NCBI GenBank assembly: GCA_035512495.1
Contig: DATKDW010000054.1
Location: forward strand, 1 to 51,525
Source: Acidimicrobiales bacterium
GTDB taxonomy: Bacteria; Actinomycetota; Acidimicrobiia; Acidimicrobiales; CADCSY01
Direction: 5' to 3'
DNA: 51,525 nucleotides
The position numbers and the translations under genes were made by a program. The notes under the pieces were generated by a model. That model was not told where the DNA came from and did no database searches. It saw only the letters and a list, made by a program, of their open reading frames with translations. This document shows, piece after piece, positions 6,005 to 13,413 of the stretch (the first letter of the stretch is position 1; each line of letters starts with the position of its first letter).

Positions 6005-7540
6005 TCAGGCGTCGGAGGTCGCGGTGTCGGCCGCGCCCGGTCCGCTCGGGTCTGCGATCAGCGGCTGGCCGGCAAGGATGCCCGTCGCGGCCGGGGGCGG
6101 GGCGCCCATCCTCAAGCCGTGATCGGTGATGGTGAACTCCAGAATGGCCTTGGAGTGGTCCGACCCGCGCAGCTTCAGGATGGAGATCCCGCGACGCAGC
6201 TCGCCGAACAGCTCCATGTAGCGCAGCAGGATGATCATGTCGAGCAGCGTCGAGGCCTCGACTCCGCTGGCGGAGGGCCCGCCCAGCAGCGAGGGCGTCG
6301 TCGTCGTCATCAGCGAGGTGATCCCTCTCGCCCTCAGGGCCGAGGTGAGGCCGAGCAAGAACTCGTGGAAGACCAGCTCGGAGGACGCCCGCTGGACGCC
6401 GGAGATGCTGTCGACCACGACCCGGGTGGGCTGGAACTCGTCGACGACTCGCAGGATCTGGATGAGGTGGGTGGGGGCTGGTGCCGACTCCGGGTACTGG
6501 CAGAGCAGGCGGATCCGGCCGTCGGCCTGCAGCGCGTCGAGGTCGTGGCCCCAACCTCGGGCGTTGCGGGTCAGCTGCTGGGCGCTCTCCTCGAAGTTGA
6601 TCATGAGGCAGCGGCCGTCGTCGTCGGTGGCCGCGGCGGCGAACTCCATTGCCAGCAACGACTTCCCAGTACCCGTTGGGCCGGAGACCAGGATGACCGA
6701 GTCCTTCATGGCACCTCCATGGCACATGTCGTCGACATCGGGGTTGCCGAGGCTGATCCGGGTGTCCGAGCACGGATGCGTCAGCTCCAGCTCCGCGAGG
6801 GAGGCGATGACGACACCTTCACCCGGCCGGATCGCGTACGGGAACTCGCCGGTGAGGTGTGGAGTGCCCCTGAGCTTGAGCGCCTCCACGGTCCTGCGCC
6901 GGACCCCGTTCTCGAGGGTGTTCCGCAGGATGAGGACGTTGTCGGCCACGAACTCCTCGACATCGAGGCGCGCTGCATCGGCGTGGTCGCGCTCCGCGGT
7001 CACGACGGCGGTCACGTCCAGCTGCTCGAGGCTCCTCACGAGCCGATGGACCTCGGCTCGGACGCGGGGCTGGTTCCCCACCCGTGTCAGCAGGTTGGTG
7101 ATCGAGTCCACCACCACGCGCTTGGCCCCGACCCGGTTCACGGCGTTGGCGATCCGCGTGATCAGCAAGCTGAAGTCCACGTCCTCGCTGATCACGAGCT
7201 CCCGGTCGTCGCTCGGTGAGAGGTCGAGGAACGCCCACGTGCCGGCGGCCTCCCAGCAGGCGATGTCCCAGCCGAGGCTGGCCATGAAGCGGCGGGTCTT
7301 CGCGGGCTGCTCGTCGAGCGTGACGAAGACGCCCGCCTCGGCGAAGTCGCGGATCCCGACGGCCAGGAACTGCGATGCCAGGACGGACTTGCCGGTGCCA
7401 GCGGCCCCCGTCAGCAGGGTGACCTCACCCTCCGGCAGGCCGCCGGCGCAGATGTTGTCCAGCCCGCGGATGCCGCTCGGCAGCATCGGCAGCGCACCCG
7501 GGAGAGGCTGCGGGGCGGCTGTCGCTGTCGGGTCAGACAT
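6005..7540 (-). CDS. kaiC: KaiC-like double-domain RecA ATPase (clock-type autokinase)
   Basis: A 511-residue protein with two tandem RecA-like domains as in cyanobacterial KaiC. CI has Walker A GAAGTGKS (45-52) and a Walker-B-like strand RVVVDSITNL; CII has GPTGTGKS (287-294) and RVVVDSISGV. The catalytic acidic pair of CII is present (NFEES, Glu317-Glu318); CI has Asp76-Glu77 at the same place. The phosphorylation region aligns with KaiC: Ser430-Thr431 (in GVEASTLLD) match S431-T432 of the cyanobacterial protein, and Ser425 replaces T426. The segment after it (IILLRYMEL to LKLRGSDHSKAILEF) is very KaiC-like. The acidic/Pro-Ala tail is unrelated. Its ATG lies inside the end of the KaiB-fusion gene (8-nt overlap, ATGTCTGA), so the two are co-translated. 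No KaiA is seen. It should be a hexameric ATPase with autokinase ability; rhythmic function is inference. Confidence 0.92.
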   Translation of the reverse strand: MSDPTATAAPQPLPGALPMLPSGIRGLDNICAGGLPEGEVTLLTGAAGTGKSVLASQFLAVGIRDFAEAGVFVTLDEQPAKTRRFMASLGWDIACWEAAGTWAFLDLSPSDDRELVISEDVDFSLLITRIANAVNRVGAKRVVVDSITNLLTRVGNQPRVRAEVHRLVRSLEQLDVTAVVTAERDHADAARLDVEEFVADNVLILRNTLENGVRRRTVEALKLRGTPHLTGEFPYAIRPGEGVVIASLAELELTHPCSDTRISLGNPDVDDMCHGGAMKDSVILVSGPTGTGKSLLAMEFAAAATDDDGRCLMINFEESAQQLTRNARGWGHDLDALQADGRIRLLCQYPESAPAPTHLIQILRVVDEFQPTRVVVDSISGVQRASSELVFHEFLLGLTSALRARGITSLMTTTTPSLLGGPSASGVEASTLLDMIILLRYMELFGELRRGISILKLRGSDHSKAILEFTITDHGLRMGAPPPAATGILAGQPLIADPSGPGAADTATSDA

Positions 7541-7823
7541 CGGAGGTACCGGGCAGGCCGAGAGCCTCGGCGAGCTGACTGGTGGCGGACAGGTCGCCGA
7601 TGACTCTCAGGACGGGCGGGGGCTGGGTCCGGATGAGCGTGGGTGTCACCAGGATGCGTGCGGCGTCGGCCTCGTCGAGGGCCTCGAGGACGTCAACGGA
7701 GGTGATGGCGTACGCGCCGGCGGGCAGGAGCTCCGCGCAGAAGCGGTCGAGGTTCGACTTGGCGGCCGCGGAGACCGCGGTGGTTCCCGACACGTACAGC
7801 GTGAACTGGTACTCCGCGGTCAC
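7533..7823 (-). CDS. kaiB: Candidate free KaiB translated from an internal GTG
   Basis: Alternative product within the fusion frame. GTG 7823 begins VTAEYQFTLYVSG and is preceded 4 nt upstream by a purine-rich Shine-Dalgarno-like run. The 96-residue product contains the whole KaiB thioredoxin-like domain and ends at the stop that overlaps kaiC. KaiB proteins are about 100 residues, so the size fits. Whether it is made beside, or instead of, the PAS-GGDEF-KaiB fusion cannot be decided from sequence. Confidence 0.45.
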   Translation of the reverse strand: MTAEYQFTLYVSGTTAVSAAAKSNLDRFCAELLPAGAYAITSVDVLEALDEADAARILVTPTLIRTQPPPVLRVIGDLSATSQLAEALGLPGTSDV

Positions 7824-8789
7824 AGCACTCCCTACCTTTCCAGCAGTCATCCGTAGCCGTGGCGATGGGTCAGCTGGGGTCCGTGACGGCTGGGCGAGCC
7901 GCTCCTTCTCCGCAACGGGCCGGGGGCGGCGCTTGTGCAGGTACATCTGCTCGTCGGCTGCATCCAGCAGGTGCTCGACAGTCGTGCCCGAACCGTCGGC
8001 GATGACGAAGCCGGTGCTCAGACCGATGGTGCAGGCCTCGCCGCTCACGAGGAACGGCTCGCGGAAGGAGGCCTCGATCCGAGCCGTGAGCTCCGTGGCG
8101 GCGGCGCGGTCGATCCCTTCGCAGAGCAGCACGAACTCGTCCCCGCCGACACGGGCGACCGAGTCTGCGGGGCGCAGCACCGAACGGAGGCGACGGCCCG
8201 CCTCGATGAGGACCAGGTCACCTGCGGCGTGGCCCCAACGGTCGTTGACAGCCTTGAAGTCGTCAAGGTCGGCCCCGAACAGGGCCACCGAGCCGGGCCG
8301 GCGAGCGAGTCGGTCGAGAGCCACGCGCAGGCGGTCCTCGAGCAGGAACCGGTTGGGAAGACCGGTCAGCTGGTCATGGGTGGCCAGGTCGACGAGAGCG
8401 ACGTCAGCGTGATGCCGGTCGGTGACGTCCCGGAGCAGGGCGAGCAGGCAGGGCCGCCCCTCCCACTCGGTGTCGACGACCCGCAGCTCGGCATACGCCA
8501 AGTGCCCTCCGGGTCGGACCAGCTCCACCTCCGACACCGCCCCGGCCAGCACGGCGAAGCCGACCTCGGCGCCGATCAGCTCGGCTTGCGAGCGCCGCAG
8601 CATCCCGACGGCGGCGGTGTTGGCGAAGCGGACCACACCGTGCTCGTCCAAGACCAGCATGCCGTCGCTGCTGCGCTGCACGAGGGCGACGAAGGCTGCA
8701 TCGCTGGCCGCCAGCCGGTTCCGGAGGGCGAGCACCTCGTCGCGCAGGTCGATGATGCTGTTCTCAGCGGCTGTCGTCGTCGGGCGCAC
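7533..8789 (-). CDS. PAS-GGDEF-KaiB fusion protein (possible internal KaiB start at 7823)
   Basis: A 418-residue open frame with three modules. Residues about 30-125 form a PAS domain (FVALVQRSSDGMLVLDEHGVVRFANTAA). Residues about 135-288 form a diguanylate cyclase: DQLTGLPNR, catalytic GGDEF at 215-219, and an inhibitory RxxD site (206-209) exactly five residues upstream, so c-di-GMP synthesis with product inhibition is expected. Residues about 326-413 are KaiB: LYVSGTTAVSAAAKSNL and ILVTPTLIRTQPPP followed by VIGDLS. At the junction, GTG at 7823 follows a GGAAAGGTAGGGAG stretch by 4 nt; starting there gives a normal-sized 96-residue KaiB. TGA and TAG lie in the alternative frame at that point, so an ancestral gene boundary fused by a frameshift is possible. 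The 5' start is also uncertain: GTG 8789 lacks a good ribosome site, while ATG 8820 has one but in another frame. Confidence 0.85.
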   Translation of the reverse strand: MRPTTTAAENSIIDLRDEVLALRNRLAASDAAFVALVQRSSDGMLVLDEHGVVRFANTAAVGMLRRSQAELIGAEVGFAVLAGAVSEVELVRPGGHLAYAELRVVDTEWEGRPCLLALLRDVTDRHHADVALVDLATHDQLTGLPNRFLLEDRLRVALDRLARRPGSVALFGADLDDFKAVNDRWGHAAGDLVLIEAGRRLRSVLRPADSVARVGGDEFVLLCEGIDRAAATELTARIEASFREPFLVSGEACTIGLSTGFVIADGSGTTVEHLLDAADEQMYLHKRRPRPVAEKERLAQPSRTPADPSPRLRMTAGKVGSAVTAEYQFTLYVSGTTAVSAAAKSNLDRFCAELLPAGAYAITSVDVLEALDEADAARILVTPTLIRTQPPPVLRVIGDLSATSQLAEALGLPGTSDV

Positions 8790-8820
8790 GGTCGGCCAGC
8801 AGACAGAGAGCCTGGGTCAT
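8764..8820 (-). CDS. 18-codon leader ORF, or frameshifted true start of the PAS-GGDEF gene
   Basis: ATG 8820 has the best ribosome-binding site of the locus, GGAGAAG with a 4-nt spacer, but opens only an 18-residue peptide (MTQALCLLADRAPDDDSR) ending at TGA 8764-8766, overlapping the PAS-GGDEF start in a different frame. Either it is a leader peptide coupled to the downstream gene, or a one-base indel near the GACGACGAC repeat separates the true N-terminus (MTQALCLLADR...) from the PAS domain. Confidence 0.4.
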   Translation of the reverse strand: MTQALCLLADRAPDDDSR

Positions 8821-10531: not shown

Positions 10532-10696
10532 GTGCTGAACGATCAGGAACGTGCGGACCTCCGGCAGGCGCTGGAGGAGATCGACGTCGAAGAAGAACAG
10601 CGGCGGGCGGCGGAGGCCAAGTGGCGGTCTGAGGCCCTACATCGCTCGCGACGGCGCGGCGCGAACCAGCGGAGCGGGCCTCTGCGCATGCGTTGA
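10532..10696 (+). CDS. 54-residue charged small protein, unknown function
   Basis: GTG 10532 is preceded by GAGGGGAG with a 6-nt spacer, a good ribosome site, so I trust this start over the longer Arg-rich frame. The product is strongly charged: an acidic helix (LNDQERADLRQALEEIDVEE) followed by a basic Arg-rich tail (SRRRGANQRSGPLRMR), suggesting an amphipathic helix plus a nucleic-acid- or membrane-binding tail. No family is recognised. It ends just before the HTH gene and may be co-transcribed with it. Confidence 0.5.
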   Translation: MLNDQERADLRQALEEIDVEEEQRRAAEAKWRSEALHRSRRRGANQRSGPLRMR

Positions 10697-10746
10697 CCGA
10701 TTCGCCAGATCCTCAAGTCCGGGCCGGTTCCGGCCGATTGAGACCC

Positions 10747-11934
10747 ATGGAGCTCGCCCCGGTGACCGACGTCGCCAGCACGCCGCCTGCCCGCATTGGC
10801 TGGCACCTCCAGCGTGCGCGAGAGGCAGTAGGGCTGTCGGTCGACGACGCCAGCGCCAGCACCGGCCTGACCGTGGCGACCATCACCGATCTCGAGCACG
10901 GCCGACGGCTGCTCTCGGTGGCCGATCACGACCGCCTGGCTACGGCCTACGGCGTCGAGGGCAGCGCCCTGATCCCACCCCGGACCCCCGTGGTGGTCGA
11001 CGAGGCCGCCCGCGTGATCCGCCTGGGCGAGCGCGAAGCAGACCTCGGCGACGAGGCCGACGTCCTGGCCTCGTACCTCTCCCTGGTGTACGACGTGCGC
11101 GGCGCCCAGCCGGGCAAGCGTATCCCTCTCCGGGACGAGGACATCGACGCCCTTGCGGCCGTGGTCGGTGACGATCCCGACCAGATCGAGGACCGTCTCA
11201 TCGAGCTGATGGGCTGCACCCGCGACGAGGCGCGGAGCCTTCGTGCCCTGCTCCTGCGACGCCGGGTGATCGGCTCGGCCGCCGCTCTGGTGCTCGGCGT
11301 GAGCGGAGTGGCCGCCTTGGCGGCGCAGCTCGGTTCCGGGAGCGATGCTCCCGCCCCGTCGGAGCCGGCCACATCGGCGGCCGCCCCGTCGCCTGCGGCG
11401 GCACCCCCCGCCGGCGAGCTCTCCCGCATCCAGGATGCTCCCGTCGCGGAGCTCGGTCCTTCTGCGCCTGAGCTCTCGGCGCCGGCGCCTCAGGCGCCTG
11501 GTCCAGCCTCAGCCCCCGCGGCGCCGGCGCCCGCGCCGGTCGCCTCGGTCGACGGCCCCGAGCCAACGGAGCTGGCGCCGCCCACGCAGATCGAGCGCGA
11601 GCTGCCCCCGCCCCGCTTCGAAGACGAGCCCCTCCCGCCGATCGACCTCGACCCGGACCTCGGTGATGGCACGGTGACCGGCCCGGGCCCGGAGACCGGG
11701 GTCGTCCCCATCGACGAAGTGACCGAGACGGACCCCGTGGACGAGGTTCCTGTGGACGAGGTTCCCGAGGATGAGGTCCCGGTGGACAAGGTTCCGCAGG
11801 ACCTGGTTCCGCCGGACACAGTTCCGCAGGACCTGGTTCCGCCGGACACGGTTCCGCAGGGCAAGGGTCCGCCGGACACAGTTCCGCAGGGCAAGGGTCC
11901 CGAGGTCAAGGGTCCCGAGGTCAAGGGGGCCTGA
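10747..11934 (+). CDS. Membrane-anchored HTH protein (RodZ-like layout) with VPxD repeat tail
   Basis: A 395-residue protein with an N-terminal XRE/HTH_25-type domain (residues 16-70: IGWHLQRAREAVGLSVDDAS, then TGLTVATITDLEHGRR), a linker, one transmembrane helix (about 174-195, VIGSAAALVLGVSGVAALAAQL), a Pro/Ala/Ser-rich segment and, from residue 331, five-residue repeats of the type V-P-x-D-x turning into G-P-x-x-K. The order HTH - helix - extracytoplasmic tail is that of RodZ, which links the cell-shape cytoskeleton to wall synthesis, but the RodZ periplasmic beta domain is missing. ATG 10747 is chosen; the frame opens at TTG 10693. Cytoplasmic DNA binding with a wall-spanning tail is inference. 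Confidence 0.65.
   Translation: MELAPVTDVASTPPARIGWHLQRAREAVGLSVDDASASTGLTVATITDLEHGRRLLSVADHDRLATAYGVEGSALIPPRTPVVVDEAARVIRLGEREADLGDEADVLASYLSLVYDVRGAQPGKRIPLRDEDIDALAAVVGDDPDQIEDRLIELMGCTRDEARSLRALLLRRRVIGSAAALVLGVSGVAALAAQLGSGSDAPAPSEPATSAAAPSPAAAPPAGELSRIQDAPVAELGPSAPELSAPAPQAPGPASAPAAPAPAPVASVDGPEPTELAPPTQIERELPPPRFEDEPLPPIDLDPDLGDGTVTGPGPETGVVPIDEVTETDPVDEVPVDEVPEDEVPVDKVPQDLVPPDTVPQDLVPPDTVPQGKGPPDTVPQGKGPEVKGPEVKGA
11737..11931 (+). repeat. In-gene 15-bp repeat array encoding VPxD/VPxK pentapeptides
   Basis: About thirteen tandem 15-bp units encode V-D-E-V-P, Q-D-L-V-P, P-D-T-V-P, Q-G-K-G-P and E-V-K-G-P type pentapeptides. Inside the array a 30-bp dimer (QDLVP+PDTVP) is repeated almost exactly, pointing to recent slippage or unequal exchange. 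Charge shifts from acidic to basic along the array. Confidence 0.8.
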
Positions 11935-11966: not shown

Positions 11967-12042
11967 CGAGTCGTTGCTGCGGGCTGGGGGTCAGCCGTCG
12001 GTGTCGCCTCCGTCGGTGCCCGGCGGCTCCTACGATCGTTGC

Positions 12043-13413
12043 GTGCCCGTCGCGCCCGGCCGCCTCGCACCCCGCCTCCACGAGGCAGCGACCCGACCCG
12101 TCAGCTCGGCTTCGGTGGCGTTCCTGCGCATGGCGTTCGGCGTGGGGATGGTCGTCAACACCCTGCTCTACCTGCCTGTCCTGGTGCGGGACTACTACGT
12201 CGACACGTCGTTCCACTTCTCGTACGGCCCGCTCACGTTCGTCCAGCCGCTCCCCGGCGCCGGCATGTACCTCGTGTACGTCGCCATGGGCATCACCGGC
12301 GTGCTCATCGCCCTGGGCCGTTGGTACCGGTGGGCGGCCGCGGCGTTCTTCGTCCTCACCACCTACGTCTTCCTGATCGACTCGACGTTCTTCCAGAACC
12401 ACGAGTACCTGATCTCGCTCCTCGCCCTGCTGCTGGCGGTGCTGCCCGGGATCGACGGGCGATGGTCGCTCGATGTCGAGCGGCACCCCGAGCGGCGACG
12501 GTCGACCGTGCCGGCGTGGGTGGTGTGGCTGCTCCGCTTCCAGGTGGGTGTGCCGTACTTCTTCGGTGGCATCGCCAAGCTGAACGGCGACTGGTTGCGG
12601 GGCGAACCGCTCCGGGCGTGGCTGGCGAGCCGCACCGACATCGGGTGGCTCAACGGGCTGCTGACCAACGACGGCGTGGTCTGGTTCATGGCCCACGGGT
12701 CCCTGGTGCTCGACCTGGTGGTGGTGTGGCTGCTCCTCCACCGGCGCACCAGGGTGCCGGCCTACGTCGTGGTGACCGGGTTCCACCTGCTCAACGTCTG
12801 GCTCTTCGGGCTGTTCATCTTCCCGTGGCTGATGATCGCGGCGACCACGATATTCTTCGACCCCTCCTGGCCGGAGCGCGCCCTCGCCCGCTGGCGGTCG
12901 CCCGCGGCGGAGGCGCCCCCCCGGCCAGAGCCGGCCGCCGGGGGCCGGGTTCGACGGCTGTCGCCGCTGCTGGTCGGCGCCCTCGGGCTCTGGGTCGCGC
13001 TCCAGGTGCTGCTTCCCCTGCGCCACCTGACCGTGGCGGGCTCACCGAGCTGGACGGAGGAGCACCACCGCTTCTCATGGCACATGAAGCTGCGTGACAA
13101 GCGAGGCGACGTCACCTACGTGGTGACCGCCGCCGACGGGCGCACGTGGCGCGTCGACCCGGCCGAGCAGCTGAGTCCCAAGCAGGCGTATCGCCTGTCG
13201 GGCCACCCGGAGCGCCTCGTGCACTTCGCCCGCCACCTCTCTGCCCAGCACGGCGGCGCCGAGGTTCGGGCTGAGACGTCGGTGTCGCTCAACGGGCGAC
13301 GCCCGCAGCCGATCGTGGACCCGACGGTCGACCTGGCCTCGCAACCGGTGCTGTGGTGGGGCCCGGCGGACTGGATCCTGCCGCTCGAGGAGCCCCTGCG
13401 CCGGTCGGACTAG
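12043..13413 (+). CDS. HTTM-domain protein, bacterial homologue of vitamin K-dependent gamma-carboxylase
   Basis: A 456-residue integral membrane protein. The N-terminal two thirds form an HTTM (horizontally transferred transmembrane) domain: several helices, FFQNHEYL between helices, and RFQVGVPYFFGGIAKLNGDWLRG, where the Lys (about residue 179) matches the catalytic-base region of animal gamma-glutamyl carboxylase. The C-terminal third has the carboxylase-like lumenal/extracytoplasmic segment, including HHRFSWHMKLRDKRGDV. The animal enzyme carboxylates protein Glu with reduced vitamin K; bacterial homologues are mostly of unknown substrate, and some act as epoxidases. The start is GTG 12043, 6 nt after TACGAT (12031-12036), rather than the longer polar upstream frame. 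Activity is inference. Confidence 0.8.
   Translation: MPVAPGRLAPRLHEAATRPVSSASVAFLRMAFGVGMVVNTLLYLPVLVRDYYVDTSFHFSYGPLTFVQPLPGAGMYLVYVAMGITGVLIALGRWYRWAAAAFFVLTTYVFLIDSTFFQNHEYLISLLALLLAVLPGIDGRWSLDVERHPERRRSTVPAWVVWLLRFQVGVPYFFGGIAKLNGDWLRGEPLRAWLASRTDIGWLNGLLTNDGVVWFMAHGSLVLDLVVVWLLLHRRTRVPAYVVVTGFHLLNVWLFGLFIFPWLMIAATTIFFDPSWPERALARWRSPAAEAPPRPEPAAGGRVRRLSPLLVGALGLWVALQVLLPLRHLTVAGSPSWTEEHHRFSWHMKLRDKRGDVTYVVTAADGRTWRVDPAEQLSPKQAYRLSGHPERLVHFARHLSAQHGGAEVRAETSVSLNGRRPQPIVDPTVDLASQPVLWWGPADWILPLEEPLRRSD

Follow-up and report, generated by a model that had tools for sequence, protein, structure and literature searches.

The locus described here raises the question of whether a diguanylate cyclase and the clock protein KaiB are encoded as a single polypeptide and, if they are, whether c-di-GMP synthesis could be placed under the control of KaiC. 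In the window, i.e., the whole stretch of 51,525 nucleotides from an Acidimicrobiales bacterium that was analysed, the initial annotation had pointed to one open frame carrying a PAS sensor, a GGDEF domain and a KaiB domain, and overlapping a kaiC gene by 8 nt. Both the frame, which is free of internal stops, and the overlap are confirmed, and the motifs lie at the residues given there. The Pfam and NCBIfam calls are concordant, and all three domain profiles score over their cut-offs, PAS barely so. The coordinates are collected in Table 1. Such a domain arrangement in one ORF is far beyond chance, and a single fusion protein is likely, though not certain, to be real.

The GGDEF domain is recognised by Pfam with an E-value of 3.3e-39 and matches solved diguanylate cyclases (e.g., 5m3c, E 1.8e-27). 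The catalytic GGDEF motif (residues 215-219), the substrate motifs and the RxxD inhibitory I-site, present as RPAD at residues 206-209, are all in place (DLDDFKAVNDRWGH). The PAS matches (PAS_4, 1.8e-5; PAS, 5.8e-5) cover residues 33-75. The KaiB domain spans residues 331-406 in Pfam PF07689 (E 1e-11; score 44.8 bits, cut-off 27), and both PTLIRTQPPP and IGDLS are present, so that score and PTL, PPP and GDLS motifs alike place it in the KaiB family. It matches solved KaiB structures with E-values of about 1e-11 (Legionella Lpp1115, 5e-9). In an alignment extended by eye, K57, G88 and D90 of S. elongatus, which have been proposed to govern fold switching, are replaced by E, A and G. Since even KaiB1 proteins vary at these positions, which are not highly conserved (PMC5520375), the replacement does not bar KaiB membership; judged from the sequence, it would be consistent with a KaiB held in the fold that binds KaiC. 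The AlphaFold2 model of the fusion, built from single-sequence input, has a mean pLDDT of 35.6.

The adjoining kaiC gene encodes the only full-length KaiC of the genome, with both CI and CII domains, Walker motifs, catalytic Glu and S/T phosphosites. CII keeps the EE pair with the catalytic Glu and the ST phosphosites, and CI has DE in place of EE. The protein scores 522.9 bits against the NCBIfam model PRK09302 (cut-off 408) and 411.7 against the stricter circ_KaiC model TIGR02655, under the cut-off of 546 for that model. Its best solved relative is the KaiC of PDB 8zn5 (E 3.7e-141). A riboswitch, a sigma-70-like promoter and a terminator were looked for around the operon and none was found. 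The view that no SasA-like kinase is present was borne out, as far as kinases whose KaiB domain can be recognised are concerned: Pfam finds no histidine kinase domain in the fusion ORF, and the KaiB of the fusion is the sole KaiB-like protein of the genome, a second, weak match to PF07689 being a thioredoxin and not a KaiB.

Table 1. Features of the kai operon in the window and of the compared loci (positions are those of the respective sequence).
Feature	Sequence	Location	Strand	Basis or remark
kaiC, two RecA-like domains	window	6005..7540	-	NCBIfam PRK09302, PDB 8zn5, motif alignment
Whole PAS-GGDEF-KaiB ORF	window	7533..8789	-	418 aa, one frame without internal stop
Stop codon of the fusion ORF	window	7533-7535	-	
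KaiB part from candidate internal start, residues 323-418 (VTAEYQFTLYV...)	window	7536..7823	-	Pfam KaiB
Internal Shine-Dalgarno-like stretch GGAAAGGTAGGGAGTGCT directly before the in-frame KaiB GTG	window	7824..7841	-	anti-SD duplex
Putative former spacer, now residues 302-322	window	7824..7886	-	GC3, codon log-likelihood
GGDEF (diguanylate cyclase) domain, residues 136-290	window	7920..8384	-	Pfam; solved diguanylate cyclases
PAS region, approximately residues 22-131	window	8397..8726	-	Pfam PAS_4/PAS; also kept in the closest relative, L042
Short ORF MTQALCLLADRAPDDDSR, 18 codons, ATG at 8820	window	8764..8820	-	good SD; other frame, overlaps the 5' end of the fusion
SpoIIE/PP2C phosphatase-KaiB fusion	L117	5619-6620	+	ends just before kaiC
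SpoIIE/PP2C phosphatase-KaiB fusion	L118	6017-7018	-	ends just before kaiC
SpoIIE/PP2C phosphatase-KaiB fusion	L128	5512-6537	-	ends just before kaiC
Receiver-domain protein, ~300 aa	L114	1699-2601	+	directly before kaiB-kaiC
Receiver-domain protein, ~300 aa	L097	6822-7742	-	directly before kaiB-kaiC
Receiver-domain protein, ~300 aa	L099	6980-7945	-	directly before kaiB-kaiC
Receiver-domain protein, ~300 aa	L092	6969-7811	-	directly before kaiB-kaiC
kaiC-kaiB-kaiB2-GGDEF	L043, L103, L106, L113; also L132, L133			L106 is PAS-GGDEF-EAL by Pfam
kaiC-kaiB-GGDEF	L044			
kaiBC-PAS-GGDEF	L092			
kaiB-PAS-GGDEF	L098, L100, L139			

The distribution of the architecture was surveyed by KaiB profile searches of overlapping samples. 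Of these, 296 genomes were of the same class, 396 of the same phylum and 397 of the same order; 35 were from the G793 family and 379 from the class to which a Thermoleophilia MAG belongs. Among the ~60 other KaiBs of these roughly 1,300 genomes, mostly actinobacterial, no second PAS-GGDEF-KaiB fusion was found, and KaiB is nowhere joined to a GGDEF domain. A tblastn search of plasmids returned no record that covers 80% of the fusion, and the KaiBs there are separately annotated. A contig scan with a two-sequence KaiB alignment and poorly chosen patterns returned only the record of the second sequence itself, a Thermoleophilia MAG, and is hardly informative on the spread of the fusion. Six genomes (G481, G079, G142, G301, G821 and G1316) have large frames around KaiB, but these were not accepted as fusions, since what lies beyond KaiB appears to be a shadow frame on top of kaiC or of some other gene.

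The same survey reveals that a separate PAS-GGDEF(-EAL) gene often adjoins kaiB. Of 35 loci, 16 have a GGDEF gene no more than 5 kb from the kai genes. A rough model with 20 GGDEF genes scattered across 3.5 Mb would predict only about 2 such loci (p about 4e-11 on this basis). In non-cyanobacterial kaiC-kaiB clusters, a histidine kinase or a GGDEF/EAL neighbour was reported for almost all in 2011 (PMC3164672). The association of kai and GGDEF genes is thus already known, and their fusion into one frame is a new form of it. A description of a KaiB-GGDEF or KaiB-SpoIIE fusion was searched for in the open-access literature and none was found. The further proposal of the initial annotation, a coupling of KaiB-KaiC to c-di-GMP, is upheld as far as the general kai-GGDEF link goes; the fusion as an established architecture is not, given a spacer-like linker and no relative that has it.

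Tandem kaiB genes follow kaiC in seven loci (L043, L045, L103, L106, L113, L132 and L133), and the divergent second kaiB often precedes the GGDEF gene. In L139 (1171-3237, + strand), kaiB and a PAS-GGDEF-EAL gene are in frame with one stop codon between them, in the order opposite to that of the window fusion.

Joining of an enzyme to KaiB was observed in a second form. In three species of two genera (G793, G928 and G972; two of the genomes belong to one genus and one to the other), a SpoIIE/PP2C-type phosphatase carries KaiB at its C-terminus. All three proteins keep the PP2C motifs GDVAGDFHD, GDVAG, AGHPP, TDGL and DDATVV, the second and third being 86% and 50% identical to the first. Their linkers have no marked dip in GC3 and no sign of a former spacer; the absence of the dip identifies them as settled fusions. 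The SpoIIE-KaiB fusions are better founded than the PAS-GGDEF-KaiB fusion of the window.

In four other kaiBC loci of this lineage, the position directly before kaiB-kaiC is taken by receiver-domain proteins. The C-terminus of one of them has a weak KaiA match (PF07688, E 0.17), and a four-sequence profile of this region finds several KaiA chains at E 0.03-0.5; by sequence, these proteins are possible KaiA3-type regulators in Actinomycetota. A search of 12 family genomes for receiver-KaiA proteins with the four-sequence model, which had no positive control there, gave zero matches. The slot before kaiB is filled by varied signalling proteins, and twice these are joined to KaiB.

The joint between GGDEF and KaiB is informative about the origin of the fusion. 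Residues 302-322 end in a Shine-Dalgarno-like GGAAAGGTAGGGAG followed by a GTG at codon 323. GC3 is 0.47 within codons 302-322 (likewise 0.47 for codons 307-323) as against ~0.88 for the rest of the ORF, and the minimum GC3 window (7/17) has p 0.0015 in a length-17 permutation across the whole ORF. In a codon model trained on other genes of the window, but not on a gene for a Pro-rich protein, codons 302-322 score -19.6 nats, and the PAS, GGDEF and KaiB parts are clearly positive. No other 21-codon window scores as low, either in the ORF or in the other window genes tested, the Pro-rich one included; the window length was picked with the spacer region already in mind. The duplex of the internal Shine-Dalgarno with the anti-SD (-7.6 kcal/mol) ranks second among 21 in-frame starts. 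On account of the low GC3, the non-coding codon statistics and the Shine-Dalgarno before the GTG, residues 302-322 look like what was once an intergenic spacer and has retained its ribosome-binding site.

Free proteins were compared with the two sides of the joint. The closest free PAS-GGDEF protein, from G244 (292 aa, 43% identity over fusion residues 12-304, the next matches scoring far lower), has its C-terminal end opposite residue ~297 of the fusion, and its gene is not accompanied by kai genes. In the same KaiC lineage, free KaiBs start within 1-2 residues of residue 323. Codon 302 is TCA, a single base away from a stop, and a stop loss at this codon is therefore the simplest history, be it a true mutation of the organism or a change that exists only in the recorded sequence. 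The domains, the catalytic motifs, the operon layout, the spacer signature and the internal start are established by the computation. With these taken together, we regard the locus as most likely a dgc gene that has recently come to be read through into the adjoining kaiB, which would yield both the fusion and a free KaiB, a reading to which we give an even chance of being correct.

Placing the stop loss in the sequence record leads to a different explanation, in which dgc, kaiB and kaiC are separate genes in the organism and one wrong base (e.g., the TCA of codon 302 for a stop codon) or an assembly indel joins the first two. In its properties the linker is just what a spacer would be, down to the Shine-Dalgarno and start of kaiB, the frames other than that of the fusion carry stops inside it, and the genes are separate in all relatives. 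The gene shows a second anomaly, at its 5' end. Hardly any Shine-Dalgarno precedes the GTG at 8789 that is assigned as its start (-1.5 kcal); the 18-codon ORF from the ATG at 8820 has coding-like statistics, while the frame of the fusion becomes coding-like only from about codon 9. With a weak Shine-Dalgarno at 8789 and a better one before a coding-like ORF, the N-terminus of the fusion is uncertain. The short ORF may be a leader peptide, or else the true start of the gene followed by a frameshift; the seeming shift of the coding frame may mean that the gene is decaying or that the consensus has errors. Against a faulty record, the frame plot of the window displays long, consistent and unbroken frames in the other genes, which argues against an assembly full of errors throughout. 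Short-read assemblies rarely contain consensus errors, and this would count in the same direction if the present assembly is of that kind. On balance, an artefact is unlikely, yet it has to be taken seriously.

A genuine read-through might also be without function, with the cyclase end drifting or decaying and KaiB acting as a free protein from the internal start. The internal start is stronger than the one assigned to the fusion, the linker is non-coding-like and a frameshift near the N-terminus is possible, all of which would be expected of such a gene. Nevertheless, the GGDEF and PAS parts have normal codon statistics with every catalytic motif kept, and the stable SpoIIE-KaiB proteins, joined in the same order, demonstrate that such joins can persist; a functionless product is held to be unlikely, but it too is a serious rival. 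That the fusion is old and settled, with residues 291-330 as a flexible linker and no free KaiB made, is very improbable, as the codon statistics of the linker, the absence of the architecture from relatives and the established SpoIIE-KaiB linkers without a GC3 dip all speak against it, in spite of an uninterrupted ORF and a linker region rich in Ala, Pro and Arg.

Under the preferred reading, a young read-through, the ancestral state would have been a three-cistron kai operon of PAS-diguanylate cyclase, kaiB and kaiC. A recent loss of the stop codon of the cyclase gene would have led to in-frame reading through the old spacer into KaiB. As the ribosome-binding site and GTG of KaiB remain, both PAS-GGDEF-KaiB and free KaiB are probably produced, and KaiC would be translated next by translational coupling. 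From these features we infer the translation products, KaiC binding and the control of cyclase activity. The KaiB part may dock on the CI ring of a KaiC whose phosphorylation or nucleotide state allows KaiB to bind. GGDEF domains work as dimers; docking would gather several of them on one KaiC hexamer, and either their crowding or their being held apart could make c-di-GMP synthesis track the state of KaiC. The PAS domain would serve as an added sensory input and free KaiB as a competitor for KaiC sites. The established SpoIIE-KaiB fusions before kaiC indicate that an enzyme N-terminal to KaiB is tolerated and kept. What counts against this reading, besides the marginal PAS scores and the seeming frame change at the 5' end, is that PAS-GGDEF-KaiB is known from one genome only and that the KaiB-KaiC rhythm of S. 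elongatus in vitro is unaffected by added c-di-GMP (PMC13001216), though the direction of coupling in that experiment differs.

Several known systems resemble parts of this arrangement. In SasA-type histidine kinases, a KaiB-like module of thioredoxin fold likewise ties an enzyme to KaiC; there, however, the KaiB-like domain stands at the N-terminus and a histidine kinase provides the output (in part after PMC3164672), in contrast to the genuine PF07689 KaiB at the C-terminus and the diguanylate cyclase output of the window fusion. If the fusion works at all, it would by analogy work like SasA in reverse order. The kaiB-kaiC operons with a GGDEF/EAL neighbour bring identical partners into one cluster, but their GGDEF gene is separate and usually downstream of kaiB or kaiC, while in the window it is upstream and in frame with kaiB. 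The KaiA3-KaiB3-KaiC3 system of Synechocystis and other bacteria also has a regulator gene in the slot before kaiB (PMC11372060). At the window locus this slot holds PAS-GGDEF and not a receiver-KaiA protein, and kaiC keeps both phosphosites. The SpoIIE-KaiB fusions share the enzyme-KaiB polypeptide immediately before kaiC and differ in having a PP2C-type phosphatase for the cyclase, in being conserved in two genera and in having no apparent former spacer. The elongated cyanobacterial KaiB1 proteins (~250 aa) also carry an N-terminal extension; theirs matched no known domain (PMC5520375), whereas that of the window is PAS-GGDEF.

A broader proposal, which we put forward tentatively and consider rather unlikely, is that KaiB is a portable C-terminal docking module that places varied enzymes on the KaiC ring in this part of Actinomycetota, namely c-di-GMP synthesis here and a PP2C phosphatase in SpoIIE-KaiB. 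In this operon, the internal start would set the ratio of enzyme-bearing to free KaiB, and the state of KaiC would control c-di-GMP without a kinase. KaiB-cyclase and conserved KaiB-PP2C polypeptides would, if the proposal is true, provide a direct answer to how KaiB-KaiC output is achieved without SasA and RpaA in non-photosynthetic bacteria, in which a clock-like ATPase controls an enzyme by docking. The fusion of the window is also a possible birth stage of such a protein, with the old ribosome-binding site still within the linker.

Two further genes of the window are worth recording. An HTH protein (10693-11934, + strand) has a sub-threshold match to the C-terminal domain of BldD (E 0.0046) and a repetitive tail of the VPQDLVPPDT type; in Streptomyces, the C-terminus of BldD binds c-di-GMP. 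It is followed by a protein resembling HTTM and vitamin K-dependent gamma-carboxylases (11974-13413, + strand), with Pfam matches to HTTM at 5e-70 and to the VKGC lumenal domain at 1e-31.
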